From positions 1 to 39,246 of the forward strand of contig JAACFG010000009.1 of NCBI GenBank assembly GCA_009937605.1: a stretch of DNA of 39,246 nt, written 5' to 3'. The translations under genes were made by a program, and so were the position numbers. The notes below the pieces were generated by a model. That model worked only from the letters and a program-made list of their open reading frames with translations. It was not told where the DNA came from and made no database searches. Shown one piece after another: positions 30,265 to 38,988 of this stretch; positions within the stretch are counted from its first letter, which is position 1, and every line of letters starts with the position of its first letter. This stretch comes from Gammaproteobacteria bacterium. GTDB taxonomy: Bacteria; Pseudomonadota; Gammaproteobacteria; Steroidobacterales; Woeseiaceae.

Positions 30265-31155
30265 TTACTGACCGCGCTCAACGATGTAGCGCGCCAGCCA
30301 TTCGAGCGGTGCCGCTGACTGGCCGAAGGGCCCGAGATCGGCCAATGCGCTCTGGAGTAGTTCATCGCAGCGCGCGCGCGAGGCCTCGATGCCAAACTGG
30401 CCAGGGTAGGTGGCCTTGCCCAGCTTTTCGTCGGATCCCGATGGCTTGCCGATCACGTGGGTCTCGCCCTCGACGTCGAGGATGTCATCCTTGATCTGGA
30501 AGGCTATACCCACCGCATGCCCAAAAGCGTCGAGAGTCGCGGTGACGCTGTCGTCATCGTCTTCGCGGAACAGGCAGGGTGAAACGATGGCCGCGTGTAT
30601 CAATGCGCCTGTTTTCAGGGAGTACATATGCTCGAGTTCTTCGGCCGTGAGCGTCTGTCCCTCGGCGGCGAGGTCAATCGACTGGCCGCCCGTCATTCCA
30701 ATTGAGCCGCACGCGTCGGCGACAAGTTTGACGAGTGCATTCTTTCCGTTGGCCGATGCGCCCTCGATATTGGCAAGCACCGAGAAGGCGAGAGGCTGCA
30801 ATGCGTCCGCGGCCAGAATGGCGGTCGCCTCGTCGTACTTGATATGTACAGTCGGCTTTCCGCGCCGCAGATCGTCATCGTCCATGGCCGGCAGGTCGTC
30901 ATGGACGAGGGAAAACGCATGTATCAGCTCGATCGCGACGGCGGGCGCATCGAGCAAATTCGGGTCGACACCGAGGCACTCGCCCGCCGCATACACGAGC
31001 AGGGGTCGTACCCGTTTGCCGCCATTGAATACGGCGTAACGCATTGCCTCATGCAAACGCGTTGGAAGCTGTGATGCAGGAGGCAGCGCCTGGTCCAGGC
31101 ATGCATCCACACGCGCCTGGTAAGTCGAGATTCGATCTTTGAAATTTTCCGGCAA
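30265..31155 (-). CDS. ispA: Farnesyl diphosphate synthase (short-chain prenyltransferase)
   Basis: Condenses IPP with DMAPP and GPP to give FPP. I chose TTG 31155 as start (296 aa, E. coli IspA is 299). The frame continues upstream but only into the antisense of the decarboxylase gene, and no ATG or GTG is available near the family N-terminus (LPENFKDRISTYQARVD). Visible are GGKRVRPLLVYAA, the first Asp-rich motif DDLPAMDDDDLRRG, GMTGGQSIDLA and the second Asp-rich motif FQIKDDILD. It consumes exactly the products of the mevalonate genes transcribed divergently 115 bp away. Geranyl-PP as main product cannot be excluded. Confidence 0.93.
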   Translation of the reverse strand: MPENFKDRISTYQARVDACLDQALPPASQLPTRLHEAMRYAVFNGGKRVRPLLVYAAGECLGVDPNLLDAPAVAIELIHAFSLVHDDLPAMDDDDLRRGKPTVHIKYDEATAILAADALQPLAFSVLANIEGASANGKNALVKLVADACGSIGMTGGQSIDLAAEGQTLTAEELEHMYSLKTGALIHAAIVSPCLFREDDDDSVTATLDAFGHAVGIAFQIKDDILDVEGETHVIGKPSGSDEKLGKATYPGQFGIEASRARCDELLQSALADLGPFGQSAAPLEWLARYIVERGQ

Positions 31156-31226
31156 CGCTCTTTCCCGAGTATTTGGGCCATGTAGCCTACACCGAAACGA
31201 GCCACTGTGCGCGGGCGCCGCTGGGC

Positions 31227-31270: not shown

Positions 31271-32233
31271 ATGCAGGGAAAGGCAATCGCACACCCGAAT
31301 ATTGCGCTCATCAAGTACTGGGGAAAGCGTGATATCGATCGCAACCTGCCCGCGGTAGGTTCGATCTCGATTACCCTGAGTGAGCTCCATACACGCATGC
31401 ATGTGGAGTTTGACAAGGCGCTGGCCACGGATGTGCTCACCGTCAATGACGAACCCGATGAGAGGATGCTGCCACGCCTTTCCGTCTGCCTGGACAACGT
31501 CGCCGGGGTCGATCGGCCGCGCGCCCGCATCGCGAGTAGCTGCAACTTTCCGATTGCTGCGGGCCTGGCTTCGTCCGCATCATCATTCGCGGCTTTGACC
31601 GTCGCAGCAGCCGGGGCAGCAGGAAAATCCTTCGATACTGCCCATTTGACCAGCCTGGCCGGTCAGGCATCCGGTTCCGCGGCGCGCTCTCTGCTCGGCG
31701 GTTTCGTCGAACTTGAGAATGTCGGCGAAGGCATCGCCTGCCACTCGCTATGCGGTGCGGACGACTGGCCTCTACGGGTGGTCGTGGCAATTACGGAGTC
31801 CGGACCGAAACCGGTCGGTTCCACCGAGGCCATGGAGATCAGCCGGCGTACGTCGCCCTTCTACGCCAACTGGGTCGACCAACAAGCACAGGACCTGGAC
31901 ACGGCTCGTGCCGCGATTGCGAATCGCGATTTTGAGACGCTGGCAGCGATTGCGGAACACAATTGCCTGAAAATGCATTCGATTATGTGGGCCTCGAGGC
32001 CGCCGATGGTCTATTGGAACGCGGCGACAATGCGATGCCTGCAAACGGTGCGCCAGCTGCAGGGCCAGGGCGTGGGCGTGTTCTTCACGATCGACGCGGG
32101 CCCACAGGTCAAAGCCGTGTGCCTGCCCGAGTACGCCAGTGAGGTCGAGGCGGCCATGCGTGCTACAACGGGTGTCGTCGACATCATGACGACAGGCCTT
32201 GGTGACGGTGCGCGCCTGGAGCGCCAGGAATGA
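31271..32233 (+). CDS. mvaD: Diphosphomevalonate decarboxylase
   Basis: ATP-dependent decarboxylation of mevalonate 5-diphosphate to IPP. It is a GHMP-fold enzyme of 320 aa. The N-terminal signature is AIAHPNIALIKYWGKRD with the conserved Lys. The phosphate loop is NFPIAAGLASSASSFAAL (92-109). GQASGSAARSLLGGF carries Arg139, and FFTIDAGPQVKAVCL carries the catalytic Asp275. Presence of the Asp, Lys and Arg set argues for a true decarboxylase rather than the mevalonate-3-kinase or phosphomevalonate-only branches. It is the first gene of the operon and overlaps the next by 4 bp (ATGA). Confidence 0.93.
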   Translation: MQGKAIAHPNIALIKYWGKRDIDRNLPAVGSISITLSELHTRMHVEFDKALATDVLTVNDEPDERMLPRLSVCLDNVAGVDRPRARIASSCNFPIAAGLASSASSFAALTVAAAGAAGKSFDTAHLTSLAGQASGSAARSLLGGFVELENVGEGIACHSLCGADDWPLRVVVAITESGPKPVGSTEAMEISRRTSPFYANWVDQQAQDLDTARAAIANRDFETLAAIAEHNCLKMHSIMWASRPPMVYWNAATMRCLQTVRQLQGQGVGVFFTIDAGPQVKAVCLPEYASEVEAAMRATTGVVDIMTTGLGDGARLERQE

Positions 32234-33135
32234 CAGTTGTCGCCAGCGCACCGGGCAAGATCGTTCTTTCGGGCGAATATGTTGTGCTTGATGGCGCGCC
32301 TGCTATAAGCATGGCGGTCGACCGGCGAGCGGTTGTGACGATGGAGGACAGCCCCGAGGGTCAATGCAACCTGGTTACGCCAGGTTTTCAGGGCAAGGAT
32401 AAATATCGAATCCTCGATGCAGTCTGCGGCGGCTCGCGCCCGGCGAAAAACATAGTGATGGATACACGCGCGTTCGCGGAGGGCAGTGAGAAGACAGGTA
32501 TCGGGTCGAGTGCCGCATTGACGGTGGCCCTCGTAGCCTGTCTCAGAGAATCGGGCGATGTACTGGAGACATCGTTGCTCGCGCATCGCGCATTCCAGGG
32601 TGGGAGAGGCAGCGGCGTCGATGTTGCGACGGCCGTCCGCGGCGGCCTCGTCGAGTACGAGATGCAATCGCAAGCCGCCAGGTCCCTGGCATGGCCGTCG
32701 GGCCTGTGCATGCGGGTCATCTGGAGCGGCATACCTGCGAGCACCGAGGCCAAGCTCGAGAAACTGGCCGCACAGGCCATTCGCCCTTCGCGTTCGGCGC
32801 TGCAGACGGCGGCTGCGCGTATGGCCGGAGCCTGGCGGTCTGGCGATGCTGATCGGATCCTGGCCGAGTACGTTTCCTATATCCGCGTGTTGCGGCAATT
32901 CAGTGTTGACCATGATCTCGGCATATTCGATGCTGGTCACGATCAACTTACGGACGCAGCAATGCTCAGCGATCTTGTTTACAAACCCGCGGGTGCCGGC
33001 GGCGGAGACATTGGGGTTCTGTTCGGCCCGGACGAGGCTGGTCTGGACGCATTCATCGCCGGCCACGGCGACCTGGTTCACGGTGTTCTCGATTGTGCGC
33101 TGGACCCTGTGGGTGTTCGGGCGTCGCCGCGATGA
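32230..33135 (+). CDS. mvaK2: Phosphomevalonate kinase
   Basis: Phosphorylates mevalonate 5-phosphate to the 5-diphosphate. A GHMP kinase of 301 aa: ASAPGKIVLSGEYVVLDGAPA (residues 5-25) is the first motif, KTGIGSSAALTVAL (about 88-101) the ATP phosphate loop, GGRGSGVDVATAVRGGL holds Asp131, and YKPAGAGGGDIGVLF the C-terminal motif. SGEYVVLDG and KPAGAGGGD favour phosphomevalonate kinase over mevalonate kinase, and the downstream gene already supplies the latter. Shorter than Gram-positive MvaK2 (about 360). Overlaps both neighbours by 4 bp. Confidence 0.9.
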   Translation: MTVVASAPGKIVLSGEYVVLDGAPAISMAVDRRAVVTMEDSPEGQCNLVTPGFQGKDKYRILDAVCGGSRPAKNIVMDTRAFAEGSEKTGIGSSAALTVALVACLRESGDVLETSLLAHRAFQGGRGSGVDVATAVRGGLVEYEMQSQAARSLAWPSGLCMRVIWSGIPASTEAKLEKLAAQAIRPSRSALQTAAARMAGAWRSGDADRILAEYVSYIRVLRQFSVDHDLGIFDAGHDQLTDAAMLSDLVYKPAGAGGGDIGVLFGPDEAGLDAFIAGHGDLVHGVLDCALDPVGVRASPR

Positions 33136-35276
33136 GCGATTCCCGAATTTCCGGTTTGTACCAACTTGGCGTCGACGAACGCGTTGCCAGGCTGCAGGAA
33201 ACGGGATGGCTGTCCGACGCCGACGCCAGTCGGTTGCGTGAAGGGCTTTGCGTACTCCCGGCAACCGCGGCCGACCGCATGATCGAAAACGTCGTTGGTG
33301 TGTTCGGCCTGCCATTTGCGATTGCCCCCAATTTTGTCGTCAATGGCCGCGAGCACATCGTTCCCCTCGTTGTCGAAGAGCCGTCCATCGTGGCCGGTCT
33401 CAGCAGCGCGGCCGGAATGGCACGTGCAGCGGGTGGATTCGAAGTCGCGAGTCGCGGTTCGCTGCTTATCGGGCAGATTCACGTAAGCAATATTCCTGAT
33501 GCCGACCATGCGATAGCTGCGCTGGCGAAGAACAAGCCGGCACTGCTCGAATCGGCCAACAAGGTTCATCCACGCCTGATTGCCCGCGGAGGCGGTGTGC
33601 GCGAGATCGAAACTCGCCTGTTTGAGCTGCCTGACGGCCGACCACTGATCGCTGTGCACGTGCTCGTCGATACCTGTGATGCGATGGGGGCCAACCTGGT
33701 TAATTCGATTTGTGAAGAAATCGCGCCGGATATTGCGGCCGCCTGCGATGCCGACGTGGCGCTCCGAATCCTGTCCAATCTTGCGGACCGCTCCCTCTAT
33801 ACGGCACGAGCGAGATTCACGTTGCCGTCGGAGGTTCGAGACGCAATCGTTACAGCAAACGACATTGCCCTTGTCGATCCATACCGCGCGGCGACACATA
33901 ACAAGGGCGTGATGAATGGGGTGGATGCTCTGGCAATCGCGACGGGAAATGACTGGCGCGCCATCGAGGCGGGTGCGCATGCCTACGCGGCCGCGGCCGG
34001 ACGCTACCAGGCCCTGACCCATTGGAGCGTTGCCGCAAACGGTGATTTGCTCGGCGAGATCAAGCTTCCGTTAAAAGTTGGAACGGTCGGAGGAACGCTG
34101 GCGAACAACCCGGCGGCGGCGTTGGGTCTCTCGCTAACGGGAGTCGCATCGGCCGGCGAACTTGCCGAGTTAATGGCCGCCGTCGGCCTTGCACAGAATT
34201 TTGCCGCGCTTCGTGCGTTGGCCACGCACGGCATTCAGGCAGGCCATATGAAACTGCATGCGCGCAGCGTTGCGGCATCGGCCGGTGCGCCGGACGACCT
34301 GTTTGATGACGTCGTTGCCCGGTTGATCGAGAGCGGCGAGATCAAAGACTGGAAGGCACGCGAAATTCTAGCTGCGCTGCAGGCACAGACCTCAGAGTCG
34401 AGTGAACCGACCGCGCTGGCTGCAGGAAAGGTGATCCTGCTCGGCGAACACGGCGTCGTTTACGGACGGCACGCACTCGCGTTACCAATCCCTGACGCTG
34501 TCAAAGTCACCCTGACCGAAGCTGACATGTTGATTCACAGTTTGCCGGCGGAGTTCGTGAATGGATTGCTCGACCAGCTGGGGGTCGACGACAGACAGTG
34601 GCAGATTAGTGTCGATTCGAGTCTGCCTTTTGGTAAGGGACTGGGTTCGTCGGCGGCGATTGCGGTGGCTATCGTACGCGCCTTCAATGAGCAACTTGAT
34701 CTCGGTCTCGACGATGCGCGGGTCAACGCGATCGCGTTTGAATGCGAGAAATTGGCTCACGGGACGCCCTCCGGTGTGGACAATACTGTCTCGACCTATG
34801 CGCAGCCAATGCTGTTTCGCAATGACGGAGGTCTCGAGGTCACGACGATCGAGGTCGGCGAAGAGCCGCCGTTGCTTATCGCCTGGGGTGATGAAAAGGG
34901 CAGGACAAGTGAGCTGGTTGCCGGCGTGCGTAGTCGTCGCGACGAAATGCCGGAGCACTTCGATGCGCTCTTTGATGAAATGGACAGTCTGAGCCTGCAG
35001 GGTGCGGAACTGCTGGGATCGGGCAGCTGGCAGGAACTGGGTGCGCTCATGAACGTCTGTCACGGCTTGCTGAACGCGATTGGTGTATCCACGCCAACGC
35101 TCGAGCGAATGGTCGCGCTTGCGCGACAGGCCGGTGCTGCTGGCGCGAAACTTACGGGGGCTGGCGGCGGTGGTTCAATCGTGGCTTTGTGTCCGGATGG
35201 CGTCGACGTCGTAGAAGAGGCATTGCGACAATGTGGGTACCAGACGCTGGTGCCCGGAAGGTATGACAGGAAATGA
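33132..35276 (+). CDS. HMG-CoA reductase / mevalonate kinase fusion
   Basis: Two successive pathway enzymes on one 714-aa chain; the start ATG 33132 overlaps the mvaK2 stop. Residues 1-415 are class II HMG-CoA reductase, very close to the Pseudomonas mevalonii type. Catalytic residues are Glu83 (VVEEPSIVAG), Lys258 (THNKGVMNG), Asp274 (ATGNDWRA) and His372 (AGHMKLHA). The last three equal P. mevalonii Lys267, Asp283 and His381 at a constant offset of 9. DTCDAMGAN is the nucleotide site, suggesting NADH use. A linker of about 12 residues (TSESSEPT) leads to mevalonate kinase (428-714). That has AGKVILLGEHGVVYG, loop LPFGKGLGSSAAIAV, Glu539 and Asp550 in CEKLAHGTPSGVDN, and KLTGAGGGGS. Both halves appear intact. 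I know of no well-described HMGR-MK fusion. Confidence 0.95.
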   Translation: MSDSRISGLYQLGVDERVARLQETGWLSDADASRLREGLCVLPATAADRMIENVVGVFGLPFAIAPNFVVNGREHIVPLVVEEPSIVAGLSSAAGMARAAGGFEVASRGSLLIGQIHVSNIPDADHAIAALAKNKPALLESANKVHPRLIARGGGVREIETRLFELPDGRPLIAVHVLVDTCDAMGANLVNSICEEIAPDIAAACDADVALRILSNLADRSLYTARARFTLPSEVRDAIVTANDIALVDPYRAATHNKGVMNGVDALAIATGNDWRAIEAGAHAYAAAAGRYQALTHWSVAANGDLLGEIKLPLKVGTVGGTLANNPAAALGLSLTGVASAGELAELMAAVGLAQNFAALRALATHGIQAGHMKLHARSVAASAGAPDDLFDDVVARLIESGEIKDWKAREILAALQAQTSESSEPTALAAGKVILLGEHGVVYGRHALALPIPDAVKVTLTEADMLIHSLPAEFVNGLLDQLGVDDRQWQISVDSSLPFGKGLGSSAAIAVAIVRAFNEQLDLGLDDARVNAIAFECEKLAHGTPSGVDNTVSTYAQPMLFRNDGGLEVTTIEVGEEPPLLIAWGDEKGRTSELVAGVRSRRDEMPEHFDALFDEMDSLSLQGAELLGSGSWQELGALMNVCHGLLNAIGVSTPTLERMVALARQAGAAGAKLTGAGGGGSIVALCPDGVDVVEEALRQCGYQTLVPGRYDRK

Positions 35277-35848
35277 ACGATCAGCACAGAATTGTCTCGT
35301 CGGAGAGCGAGGAACTCATACTCGTCGATCGAGCCGACAATGAGGTCGGTTTCGTCTCCAAGGCGGACGCCCACGATGGTGCCGGCATTCTGCACCGTGC
35401 CTTTTCATTGTTTCTGTTCAATGATAAGGGCGAACTCCTGGTGCAACAGCGCGCGCCAGGCAAGCGTCTTTGGGGCGGATACTGGTCGAACAGTTGTTGC
35501 AGCCATCCGCGGCGTGGCGAGTCCATGCAGATCGCGACATCGCGCCGCCTGCTCGATGAACTCAATATCGAGGCCGAGCTCGAGTACGTCTATCACTTCT
35601 GCTACGAAGCGCACTTCGGCGACGCGGGGTCCGAAAATGAGCTGTGCCATGTATACCTTGGCAAGGCGACCGAGCCTGTCCAGCCCAACGACAGCGAAAT
35701 TGCGGCGATCCGCTTCGTGTCAACCGTCGATCTCGACACCGAACTTGCGGATTATCCGGAGCGATTCACGCCCTGGTTCAAACAGGAGTGGGAAGCGTTG
35801 CAGAAGAACTACCGCGAGCAGCTGGGACGCTACTGCGATCAAACCTGA
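35273..35848 (+). CDS. idi: Isopentenyl-diphosphate isomerase, type I
   Basis: Interconverts IPP and DMAPP. A Nudix-fold enzyme of 191 aa: GILHRAFSLFLFNDKGELLVQQR opens the domain. SNSCCSHPRRGES holds catalytic Cys76 and the metal-binding His, and SENELCHVYLG holds the catalytic Glu123. The flavin-dependent type II enzyme, common with bacterial mevalonate operons, is not used here. An isomerase is essential in a mevalonate-only organism because the decarboxylase makes IPP alone. It overlaps the fusion gene by 4 bp and is the last gene of the operon, 3 bp from the convergent HMG-CoA synthase stop. Confidence 0.95.
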   Translation: MNDQHRIVSSESEELILVDRADNEVGFVSKADAHDGAGILHRAFSLFLFNDKGELLVQQRAPGKRLWGGYWSNSCCSHPRRGESMQIATSRRLLDELNIEAELEYVYHFCYEAHFGDAGSENELCHVYLGKATEPVQPNDSEIAAIRFVSTVDLDTELADYPERFTPWFKQEWEALQKNYREQLGRYCDQT

Positions 35849-35851
35849 CGG

Positions 35852-37336
35852 TCAGGCGATGTATTTGTAGTATTCGATGCCGAGATCGGCGAAATGCCGT
35901 TCGTCGTGGCAACCGACGCGTTCGATCACGAACTCATTATTTGGGGAATACTCGAGGTCAGTTACATGGCGCCCGTCATGCAGGGCTTTGTATTGCTCGA
36001 AGTTGAGATCGATTGCAGATTTCATGGCGTCACCGAAGCAAATCTTGCGCGTCGCTTCGCGCCAGCCCTCGGCCATGAAGAACGGGATGACTTCGGCAGC
36101 ATCCCCACTGCCATAACCCAGTGTCAGGACTTCTTCACCGACCTTGAGCGAGTCCTCTTCGAGTGCCTGCTCAAAACCAGCTGCCATCCAGGCGGGTAGC
36201 GCCGCCGTATAAAGATTTCCGAGGTCCAGCATCGTGTCGCTGCCCAGCTTCATCTTGTCGAGTATCTCGCGACGGAAGTGGCGCGAAGCTCGGAATGCGC
36301 GCAATGCGGCCATTGTCAGCGGGTAGGCCTCGTAGTGGAGCCTCTCAGGATCCGCAAAATTGGCGACTTCGGGTTTCGTGCGCATCTCCTCGAGCATCAG
36401 CTCGACGTCTATGCCAGCCTCGTAGCAATACGATGCGAGTTCCGCGCGGTCCTCGCCATTGCCATGGCTCAGAGCAAACAGGTAGGAAACGGCCCAGCCG
36501 GTCTCGGGCATACGCCGGTACGGGCGATGCATGAATACACTTCGCAGGGACCGCAGGTACTCACCGGGGTTAAGTTCGCGCTTTTCGTACATGTCCTGCA
36601 GCGCGTGCAGCGTTTCGTCGATATAACAGGTCGTGGAGAACTTGCCATTGAACACCGGGAAATCCTGCACCTGGTGCGATTCGGAACGGTCCTGACCGCA
36701 GAAGCGCAACATGGGCTTGCGGAAATCCATGATGCGGTAGTCCGAGGCCGAGCCCGAACCGACGAGATCGACGACCGCAAGTTGTGGATCTTCCTCAAGG
36801 AGCATGGCGACAGCGCCGGCGCCCTGGGTTGGTTCGCCTGAGCTACCGCGTGCGTACTCGGCGATATCGGCGCAGACGACGATCGCCTGTCCACCTGCAC
36901 CGTCGAGCGCGAGATGACGGATGGCGCCTTTCATGCCGTAGACACCGCCAAGGCATGCGTGCTTGAACTCAGGTACTTCGCAGCTGCGCGAAATTGGCGG
37001 CTTGCCGCGCGCAACCAATGCCTCATCAACCATGCCCTTGATAATGATCGCGCCAGCCGAATTGTCGGTGCTCGACTCGGTTCCCAGCCCTAAGAATTTG
37101 ACCCGCGTTGGGTCGATATCGTACTGGTCTATCAGGCGAAGGACGGCATTCGCGGCCATCGTGTAGACGCTGTGATTGGGGCCACGTACACGGAAACTGC
37201 GCCCCACAACCTCGCGAATCTTGGGCCACTGGTTTTCGGTCCAAGCACACCAGTCCTCCAGCCATACTCGATATGGCGGGATATAGGCCGCGAGGCCGCT
37301 AATTCCGATGGGACGTCTGGTGTTGGGCGTAGTCAT
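35852..37336 (-). CDS. mvaS: HMG-CoA synthase
   Basis: Condenses acetyl-CoA and acetoacetyl-CoA to HMG-CoA. Thiolase fold, with the catalytic triad visible as Glu87 (GLGTESSTDNSAG), Cys128 (FKHACLGGVYG) and His270 (VFMHRPYRRM). At 494 aa it is about 100 longer than the Firmicutes MvaS (388). The extra length appears mostly in the C-terminal half, after MLEEMRTKPEVANF. ALSHGNGEDRAELASYCYEAG resembles the usual SYGSG region. The opposite strand from the rest of the pathway means a separate promoter, so flux entry could be set independently. No strong Shine-Dalgarno precedes the ATG. Confidence 0.93.
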   Translation of the reverse strand: MTTPNTRRPIGISGLAAYIPPYRVWLEDWCAWTENQWPKIREVVGRSFRVRGPNHSVYTMAANAVLRLIDQYDIDPTRVKFLGLGTESSTDNSAGAIIIKGMVDEALVARGKPPISRSCEVPEFKHACLGGVYGMKGAIRHLALDGAGGQAIVVCADIAEYARGSSGEPTQGAGAVAMLLEEDPQLAVVDLVGSGSASDYRIMDFRKPMLRFCGQDRSESHQVQDFPVFNGKFSTTCYIDETLHALQDMYEKRELNPGEYLRSLRSVFMHRPYRRMPETGWAVSYLFALSHGNGEDRAELASYCYEAGIDVELMLEEMRTKPEVANFADPERLHYEAYPLTMAALRAFRASRHFRREILDKMKLGSDTMLDLGNLYTAALPAWMAAGFEQALEEDSLKVGEEVLTLGYGSGDAAEVIPFFMAEGWREATRKICFGDAMKSAIDLNFEQYKALHDGRHVTDLEYSPNNEFVIERVGCHDERHFADLGIEYYKYIA

Positions 37337-37394: not shown

Positions 37395-37871
37395 TTATTC
37401 TACGTTTATTGCAATAACATCCGACATCAGGGGCGGGTCATGCGGGATATGCAGGTGGTCGCCGAGCAGCATTTGCAGCGTATGTTCGCCCGGTGGCAGG
37501 GAAATTTCGGTCACGGTGCTGCCGTCCCCGAAATGAATATGATTCTCATCTTTGGGGATCGGCATTCCAAGATCAGGAACCGCTGTGTCTATGAGCAGGT
37601 GGTGGTGGCCGGAATGCGGTGTGTCCTGGCCCGCCGGAGCAACAGTCATTCCCTCAATTCCGAAGACGACGCTGATGGGGTTGCTGACCGTCTCGCCATC
37701 AGCCGGGCTGATGAAGAACACCACTGCATCCGCTGCCGACGGGCTGCGAGATGGCATGTTAGCCGCGGTCTCGGGAACGGCCGCTTCGGCTGCAGGTTCA
37801 CTTGTGGGCCTGTCGCCGCATGCGGCAAGCGGAGCCAACAATACTAGCGCGAGCAGGATCTTGTTCTTCAT
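37395..37871 (-). CDS. DUF4399 lipoprotein
   Basis: Start ATG 37871 (158 aa), with GAGG seven bases upstream; a longer frame overlaps the DUF3667 gene and is unlikely. The signal peptide ends in the lipobox LAACG. A low-complexity Ala/Ser/Pro linker follows, then the DUF4399 domain (about 50-158) with SGHHHLLID, ENHIHFGDGSTV and LPPGEHTLQMLLGDHLHIPH. The many histidines suggest metal binding, but the family's function is not known. It lies 19 bp after the DUF3667 gene on the same strand. Confidence 0.9.
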   Translation of the reverse strand: MKNKILLALVLLAPLAACGDRPTSEPAAEAAVPETAANMPSRSPSAADAVVFFISPADGETVSNPISVVFGIEGMTVAPAGQDTPHSGHHHLLIDTAVPDLGMPIPKDENHIHFGDGSTVTEISLPPGEHTLQMLLGDHLHIPHDPPLMSDVIAINVE

Positions 37872-37890
37872 TGCTGTGCCTCGGGTAGCT

Positions 37891-38988
37891 TCAGACGGAA
37901 ACGAGCGCGAATAGCAGGGCACCCAGCATGGTGACCATTGCTCCGACTATGTAGGCGGACACCAGCGTAATGTACTTAAAAAAGGTAAAGATGTGCCCCT
38001 GCGCGTAGACCAGGCGCATCGCCTTGTACAGGTAGACAGGAATATAGAACGACGCGGCGACCAGGATGAGGATACCGATTGCCTCGGGCAGGTGAATCAG
38101 GCCGGCGAAACGGGAGAACAGGATCTGCAGCGTCAGTATCAGGAAGAAGAAAGAGTGAAAGTGCACGAAGAACAACAGGTGCTCGACAAAGTAGCGTCGT
38201 GACAACGGGTACAGCACCTTCAGTACCAACGCCATGACCGGCAGCAGAACGATAAGAGCGATCGGGATATTGTCCAGCACGAGGTTGAGGAGAGTCTTGC
38301 CTTCGTCAGCCCCGATGCGTTCGCAAGTGGCCTCAAGGCGTTCCTTGGTCAACCGGCGTTGGAGCCAGTCGGGCATATCTTCCCGCCCGCTGAATTCGCA
38401 CTCTCCGGTTTCAGGATCGATCTTGAAGTCGAACCCGCCCTCTTCGTCTCCGTAGAGCCTTACATTGACATCATCCTCGTCGTCAACAGCTTCTCTGGCC
38501 TCATCAGCCTGATCGGCCGAAATGATGCCTTCCTCAGACAGTTCCTCGAGAACCTCGTTTATGTCAGCTTCCGCTTCCTCCCATTCTTCCGCCTCTGCAG
38601 CTGCCTCTGCAGCCGCTTCCTCCGGCGTGGGTGGGGGTTCTGGTTCAAATAGCAGGCTCAGGTCGTCTTGCGGATCAAAAAATGCGACAACGAAGAAGAC
38701 GACACTGAGAACGAGATACATGCGGAACGGCGGCATGTACCGGGCGCGCTTGCCCTCGAGATAGTCGAGGGTCAGACGCCCGGGGCGGATGAGTAATGGG
38801 ATCAGTGTTCGCCACAACCGTGAGTCGACCTCGAACAGGTCGCCAAATGCGTCCTGCAGCAATTCCCACAGGCTGATCAGGCGCCCCCGCGCACGTTGTC
38901 CGCAGATACCACAGTACTGGCCCCGCAGCTCAGCGTCACAATTCAGACAATTCGGGTGGTCGGGAAGCTGCGGTGCTTTTCTCGGCAT
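37891..38988 (-). CDS. DUF3667 membrane protein with zinc ribbon
   Basis: A 365-aa protein. The N-terminal zinc ribbon has CLNC-N8-CGIC pairs (about 14-30), followed by RLISLWELLQDAFGDLFEVDSRLWRTLIPLLIRPGRLTLDYLEGKRARY, a DUF3667 hallmark stretch. Then comes one transmembrane helix (near 90-105). A strongly acidic Glu/Ala/Asp insert follows (about 110-180). Four to five helices occupy 235-365. The acidic insert is unusually long for the family by my recollection. Function unknown; members are inner-membrane proteins in many proteobacteria and Bacteroidetes. Confidence 0.88.
   Translation of the reverse strand: MPRKAPQLPDHPNCLNCDAELRGQYCGICGQRARGRLISLWELLQDAFGDLFEVDSRLWRTLIPLLIRPGRLTLDYLEGKRARYMPPFRMYLVLSVVFFVVAFFDPQDDLSLLFEPEPPPTPEEAAAEAAAEAEEWEEAEADINEVLEELSEEGIISADQADEAREAVDDEDDVNVRLYGDEEGGFDFKIDPETGECEFSGREDMPDWLQRRLTKERLEATCERIGADEGKTLLNLVLDNIPIALIVLLPVMALVLKVLYPLSRRYFVEHLLFFVHFHSFFFLILTLQILFSRFAGLIHLPEAIGILILVAASFYIPVYLYKAMRLVYAQGHIFTFFKYITLVSAYIVGAMVTMLGALLFALVSV

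Follow-up and report, generated by a model that had tools for sequence, protein, structure and literature searches.

We analysed a stretch of 39,246 nucleotides from a gammaproteobacterium of the family Woeseiaceae (contig JAACFG010000009.1, positions 1 to 39,246; hereafter the window), in which a gene on the forward strand at 33132..35276 joins a class II 3-hydroxy-3-methylglutaryl-CoA (HMG-CoA) reductase (HMGR) to a mevalonate kinase (MK). The gene translates, without an internal stop, into 714 residues in a single frame, followed by the stop codon. Searches with NCBIfam hidden Markov models found both domains to be complete and over their curated cut-offs, the HMGR domain at residues 2-377 (TIGR00532, 371.5 bits versus a cut-off of 259.95) and the MK domain at residues 430-686 (TIGR00549, 240.4 bits versus 163.05, covering profile positions 1-276 of 276). 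Pfam was consistent with NCBIfam on both domains (PF00368, 318.8 versus 27), and neither set of profiles gave a thiolase family match in the protein. These results bear out the initial annotation, made from the sequence alone, which had described two consecutive mevalonate-pathway enzymes fused in frame and had distinguished this fusion from MvaE, where a thiolase is joined to the reductase.

The catalytic residues named in that annotation are in place. E83 (33378-33380), K258 (33903-33905), D274 (33951-33953) and H372 (34245-34247) of the reductase were present in all 52 aligned reductases, 12 of them fused, and E539 (34746-34748), D550 (34779-34781) and K433 of the kinase half were invariant in alignments of 17 and of 37 fusions. 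The last three we take to be the counterparts of E193, D204 and K13 of rat mevalonate kinase. The alignments also mark S507 in the kinase half.

In the predicted monomer model of the fusion (mean pLDDT 87.4, pTM 0.64), both folds were present with a short low-confidence linker between them. Profiles, alignment and model together place the reductase half at residues 1-419 (33132..34388, forward strand), and the kinase half, a GHMP kinase by profiles, alignments and fold, occupies residues 427-714 (34410..35273, forward strand). The linker comprises residues 420-426 (34389..34409), with pLDDT <50 at 421-424. The last helix of the reductase ends at residue 419 and the first strand of the kinase starts at 427, which agrees with the junction that had been placed near 33132+1260. 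The C-terminal part of the reductase half forms a three-helix domain in the model (residues 367-419, 34230..34388; helices 367-383, 391-401 and 406-419), corresponding to the flap described in the available part of PMC10070635. When the model was searched with Foldseek, HMGR structures ranked first and mevalonate kinases were retrieved for the second half. The mevalonate kinases 8teb, 4hac and 6mde were the top solved relatives of the kinase half both by sequence and by fold, and PmHMGR was by both measures among the closest solved structures of the reductase half.

No ATG, GTG or TTG occurs among the 30 codons preceding the AAGKVILLGEH motif in the window gene, which leaves the kinase without an evident separate start. 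Within the 25 codons before the kinase, 32 of 94 fusions lacked any start codon, 21 had an ATG and 41 had GTG or TTG only; these mixed counts indicate that a separate kinase start is not conserved.

The single frame recurs in many genomes. A close-relative set comprised 60 genomes, the window genome and 59 relatives; a strong match was found in 48 of these, and 47 of the 48 matches crossed the junction in one frame, the lone exception (G006) ending at residue 363. From a separate genome collection, 579 loci were confirmed and the best 80 kept, ranked by likeness, so that their counts do not represent frequencies. When the 80 loci were read frame by frame, 39 had both domains in one frame, 11 had adjacent separate genes and 30 had no kinase in the fetched stretch; the kinase of L086 was truncated by the contig end. 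Additional fusions implied by tblastn coverage were discarded by this reading, which showed neighbouring separate genes or found no kinase. Because the single frame is common to 39 of the 80 best loci and to 47 of the 48 strongly matching genomes of the close-relative set, we reject a sequencing artefact, including the stop near residues 415-430 that the initial annotation had feared might be hidden: the junction is open in many genomes. Stops were flagged inside the match in four genomes of the order sample described below, namely G127 (three TAA), G013, G201 and G024. Despite them, both domains lie in one frame in G013 (L021) and G024 (L010). The reductase start in G127 (L178) is split from the frame that carries the remaining reductase and the kinase.

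The order sample contained 396 genomes, and an alignment at E about 1e-97 or better was counted as a strong match. Strong matches were found in 198 genomes, 195 of which belong to the fusion-bearing families of the order (f1, f3, f4 in its genus g17, f5, f6, f8, f12, f13, f15 and f16) and three to f10. Some of the 195 matches are interrupted at contig ends; re-inspection covered six of the weaker ones, not every row. Two of these showed the reductase part only (G233 and G252), two only a stretch spanning the junction into the kinase (G077 and G192), and two had pieces on two contigs, one piece spanning the junction (G154 and G309). The fusion was uncommon in the wider sample of the class (nine full-length and one partial, G574, among 369 genomes) and was found in one of the 349 genomes of the phylum sample, the window's own. 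Matches to the reductase half only occurred in 18 genomes of the former (E 1e-96 or better) and in 10 of the latter (E 1e-142 or better). Among the best 80 of the 579 loci, single-frame fusions outside the phylum came from Calditrichota (4 loci), Acidobacteriota (3), one Planctomycetota metagenome-assembled genome (MAG), one Nakamurella MAG and three cultured Cryobacterium species; the taxon labels of MAGs may be wrong, and the Cryobacterium records are strains. The fusion is thus no rarity of this genome: it is widespread in the window's order and occurs in three or more further phyla.

Searches of the open-access full-text literature (PMC), judged by titles and the openings of abstracts, gave no account of an HMGR-MK fusion, subscription papers and domain-architecture databases lying outside that scope. 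A 2026 review (PMC13001223) gives, in the part available, MvaE and IspDF as examples of double enzymes and does not mention HMGR-MK. We therefore provisionally regard the fusion as undescribed. Fused consecutive enzymes are already known; it is the HMGR-MK pair that, provisionally, is new.

The fusion gene is the third of four forward-strand genes in the window. It is preceded by diphosphomevalonate decarboxylase (MVD, 31271..32233; TIGR01240 over cut-off) and a phosphomevalonate kinase-like GHMP kinase (PMK, 32230..33135) and followed by type I isopentenyl-diphosphate isomerase (IDI, 35273..35848; TIGR02150 and NF002995 over cut-off). Each junction of this MVD-PMK-(HMGR=MK)-IDI operon is a 4-base overlap. 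The operon is biosynthetic, as had been proposed. The PMK-like kinase reached the cut-off of none of the PMK models that it matched (best model TIGR01220, 68 bits versus 165.7) and scored nearly as well with the MK model (TIGR00549, 64.8 bits, also below cut-off); from its gene context and conserved position, we infer that its substrate is phosphomevalonate. The same gene order was found in Gammaproteobacteria, Calditrichota, Acidobacteriota (L074) and the Planctomycetota MAG, and Cryobacterium has MVD-PMK-(HMGR=MK). MVD was present in all nine genomes checked for it, among them some that do not have it next to the fusion, and PMK followed MVD in all eight fetched MVD loci, two of which (L186 and L188) are fusion operons themselves.

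The presence of the fusion was compared with that of DXR, an enzyme of the methylerythritol phosphate (MEP) pathway. The window genome, which is 86.6% complete, has a single HMGR match and no match to DXR. In the order sample, DXR matches were found in 185 of the 396 genomes and were over cut-off in 180. Of the 195 strongly matching genomes from fusion-bearing families, none had DXR over cut-off, and only G166 had any DXR listing (E 9.4e-4). The fusion and DXR are thus very nearly mutually exclusive in the order. Three apparent cases of a fusion alongside DXR, all in f10 (G237, G342 and G346), were rejected, as the match covers the reductase alone and has a TGA in its last stretch. One genome of f7, G042, had neither a strong match nor DXR.

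The initial annotation had assigned the reductase half to the P. mevalonii type, known from mevalonate breakdown. This label was not supported: the fused reductases form a clade of their own (support 100/99), none of seven plasmid reductases other than MvaE, named degradative or unannotated, falls inside it, and the cofactor helix has His rather than Asp. At residue 146 in this helix, the fusion has His where all seven degradative-type plasmid reductases have Asp; Asp was also found at this site in several Chloroflexi and archaeal reductases. HMG-CoA lyase or TRAP transporter genes were located near the reductase in four of six annotated plasmid regions that were opened, MvaE regions not counted. 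Given the separate clade and the His, the puzzle of a degradative enzyme in a biosynthetic operon largely disappears.

The cofactor-helix motif of the window protein is H146-P-R-L-I-A-R152 (33567..33587, forward strand). According to the available part of a 2026 preprint (PMC13370337), Dx(V/L)xxxL marks the NADH type and (H/Y)xSxxxR the NADPH type. When the motif was measured in 96 of the 99 distinct fusions, the first position was H in 94 and the last was R in 94. The Ruegeria enzyme, as described in the accessible part of PMC12292504, uses mainly NADH, admits NADPH when D154 is changed to Lys, and was assayed in both directions. From the offset to its catalytic E91, we take D154 to be the same site as residue 146 of the fusion. 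With the H and R of the NADPH-type helix and no Asp, the fusion would be expected to use NADPH or both cofactors.

For phylogenetic analysis, 162 reductases were on hand, 94 of them in fusions and with copies of one genome included; 56 were selected by hand for the careful tree, and P. mevalonii was not among the rows of any tree. In the 56-row tree, the 28 fused reductases lay on one side of a branch with support 100/99, which was recovered in 100% of 200 bootstrap trees, and six degradative-type reductases formed a separate group, also at 100/99. The latter group was defined after the quick tree and includes two gammaproteobacterial sequences without names; the plasmid reductases L160, L161 and L165, which are named degradative, lay outside it in the quick tree. 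In that quick tree of 91 reductases, all 48 fused rows grouped together at 99. Myxococcota were considered as sister to the fused reductases, with a value of 86 in the quick tree, and were dropped when the careful tree gave no support. The quick trees of reductases and of kinases both placed Cryobacterium beside Salinisphaera, which suggests transfer. The tree evidence suggests one fusion event with later transfer as the simplest reading. The most likely precursor of the fusion is a pair of neighbouring HMGR and MK genes: such unfused pairs in Myxococcota and Bacillaceae account for the 11 loci among the best 80, and their arrangement could illustrate the starting point.

We consider it probable that the gene encodes a bifunctional biosynthetic enzyme which, within the MVD-PMK-(HMGR=MK)-IDI operon, stands in for the MEP pathway. 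This reading draws on direct observation of the single frame, the intact catalytic residues, the operon, its conservation, the clade of fused reductases and the near exclusion with DXR. Several observations weigh against parts of it. In the 56-row tree, no unfused group was supported as sister of the fused reductases. The fused kinases were recovered as one clade only at 85/72 (28 of the 38 rows in a tree that excludes the long-branched L096), and in the 55-row quick kinase tree they require two changes, with Myxococcota mixed among them without resolution. The fusion accompanies IDI and lies apart from MVD-PMK in L034, L040, L042 and L174-L177 (families f12, f13 and f15). Position 3 of the NADPH-type motif was never Ser in the fusions, being R, N or K in 92 of the 96. 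Finally, at least eight genomes of fusion-bearing families lack both a strong match and DXR (G025, G153, G203, G208, G210, G228, G293 and G328), two of which (G153 and G228) are >90% complete; such genomes may reflect either incomplete assembly or another source of isopentenyl diphosphate.

Two variants of the fusion were found. Genus g8 was sampled with two genomes, and in each of them PMK, HMGR and MK share a single open frame, which reads as a candidate three-enzyme fusion of 1133 residues in L033 (5665-9063, forward strand) and also occurs in L032 (5561-9799, reverse strand). No stop ends PMK before the reductase start of the triple frame, where a GTG is preceded by GGAG, and so a separate HMGR=MK protein may also be made. 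Seven further long frames (L166-L172, 1043 to 1645 residues) were rejected as triple fusions, because there is no PMK in the fusion frame; only L032 and L033 have it. The other variant comprises three members from the window's genus, L043 (5734-7860, reverse strand), L044 (5376-7439, forward strand) and L045 (6262-8337, reverse strand), in which flap helices 2-3 are missing and the GHM-LHAR motif with the catalytic His is kept. The distance from LHAR to the kinase motif is 20-23 residues in these proteins versus a median of 59, as measured in 92 of the 99 distinct fusions (seven failed the motif match). The loss of these helices is a reason to examine whether the kinase affects the flap.

From the sequence, both enzyme activities, a preference for NADPH and a forward pull would be predicted. 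The N-terminal class II reductase would convert HMG-CoA to mevalonate at the expense of NAD(P)H (probably NADPH), after which the kinase at the C-terminus would use ATP to convert that mevalonate to mevalonate 5-phosphate. The fusion would hold both enzymes at 1:1, with the kinase at the end of the mobile flap of the reductase. Since the reductase step is reversible, a kinase that consumes mevalonate nearby should pull the reduction forward; the main effect would be co-localisation at a fixed ratio. The monomer model gives no indication of a tunnel between the active sites and says nothing about the path between them. The initial annotation's suggestion that less mevalonate would be lost to diffusion is plausible.

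How much the covalent link contributes can be read in other ways. It is possible, though we rate it below even chances, that the fusion provides only a fixed 1:1 dosage and co-translation, with mevalonate diffusing freely and no kinetic gain. Bacterial HMGR is described in the available part of PMC10070635 as an intertwined dimer with its active sites at the dimer interface and a C-terminal flap that closes over the active site; this arrangement is compatible with dosage alone, as is the low-confidence linker of a monomer model that is silent on the path between sites. Retention of the fusion in many genomes, even where it is apart from MVD-PMK, seems to be more than dosage would require. A functional coupling of kinase and flap, in which flap motion hands over mevalonate or is altered by the kinase, and the kinase partly replaces the flap in some members, appears unlikely. 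The kinase does directly follow the last helix of the flap in the model, and the short-flap members have lost helices 2-3 and kept the catalytic His, but they are only three of the 92 measured fusions, all from one genus, and a short flap may simply be tolerated, class I enzymes having only the first helix in the same partial account (PMC10070635). We are similarly doubtful of the boldest view, an undescribed class of mevalonate assembly-line enzymes in which an MK placed on the catalytic flap of HMGR influences the flap and captures mevalonate as it is formed, with PMK added in front in one lineage.

It is very improbable that each half is produced or matured on its own, through an internal start or proteolysis, so that the fusion is merely genetic. 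An ATG in 21 of the 94 fusions, and GTG or TTG in 41 more, would permit an internal start, but none is available in the other 32 or in the window gene, and no stop lies between the halves. We give the least credence to a reductase half that runs backwards in mevalonate breakdown. TIGR00532 carries a degradative label and the NAD-type PmHMGR is among the closest solved structures; that label, however, is put on all sorts of class II enzymes, including Enterococcus MvaE. The tree, the cofactor site and the gene neighbours led us to set a degradative reductase aside: the seven plasmid reductases have Asp where the fusion has His and lie outside the fused clade, lyase or TRAP genes neighbour the plasmid enzymes in four of the six regions, whereas MVD, PMK and IDI are the neighbours here, and DXR was not found in the window genome.

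The fusion can be compared with several known systems. Enterococcus MvaE, as presented in the available parts of PMC10070635 and PMC13001223, likewise combines a class II HMGR with another mevalonate-pathway enzyme in a single chain. In MvaE, the partner is acetoacetyl-CoA thiolase, which acts upstream in the pathway and is N-terminal, whereas in the present fusion the partner is MK, the enzyme of the following step, which is C-terminal and on the flap; two MvaE reductases fell far from the fused clade in the quick tree. Myxococcus, Corallococcus, Virgibacillus, Oceanobacillus and Lentibacillus have adjacent HMGR and MK genes in the same order, but in two frames that give two proteins. The degradative-type class II reductases of P. 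mevalonii, Ruegeria and Burkholderia share the fold, the catalytic residues and roughly 43-47% identity; they differ in lying outside the fused clade (P. mevalonii not being in the trees), in the Asp of the cofactor helix and in having no kinase. IspDF of the MEP pathway, according to the accessible text of PMC13001223, is likewise a naturally occurring enzyme with two functions in the bacterial synthesis of isoprenoid precursors, but it belongs to the other pathway, and the steps that it joins are not consecutive, unlike those of HMGR and MK.

Other genes of the cluster flank the operon. A farnesyl diphosphate synthase-like gene (30265..31158, reverse strand, start codon approximate; NF045485 over cut-off) is divergent from it. 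An HMG-CoA synthase-like gene (35852..37336, reverse strand) is convergent with it, and the product is over the gathering scores of PF01154 and PF08540. This protein is unusually long (494 amino acids) and is below the cut-offs of the five NCBIfam HMG-CoA synthase models that it matched (TIGR01835, 158.8 bits). Genes for a DUF4399 protein (37395-37922) and a DUF3667 protein (37891-38988), both on the reverse strand, adjoin the cluster.

According to the part of PMC13001223 available, HMGR catalyses the step that limits the rate of the mevalonate pathway. A natural and widely inherited fusion of this enzyme with the next one would offer a ready-made test of the gain in flux from joining two steps, and may serve as a part for metabolic engineering. 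Because cultured Cryobacterium strains carry the fusion, it could be studied without growing uncultured marine bacteria. The fusion is also a marker for switching between the mevalonate and MEP pathways within one bacterial order.

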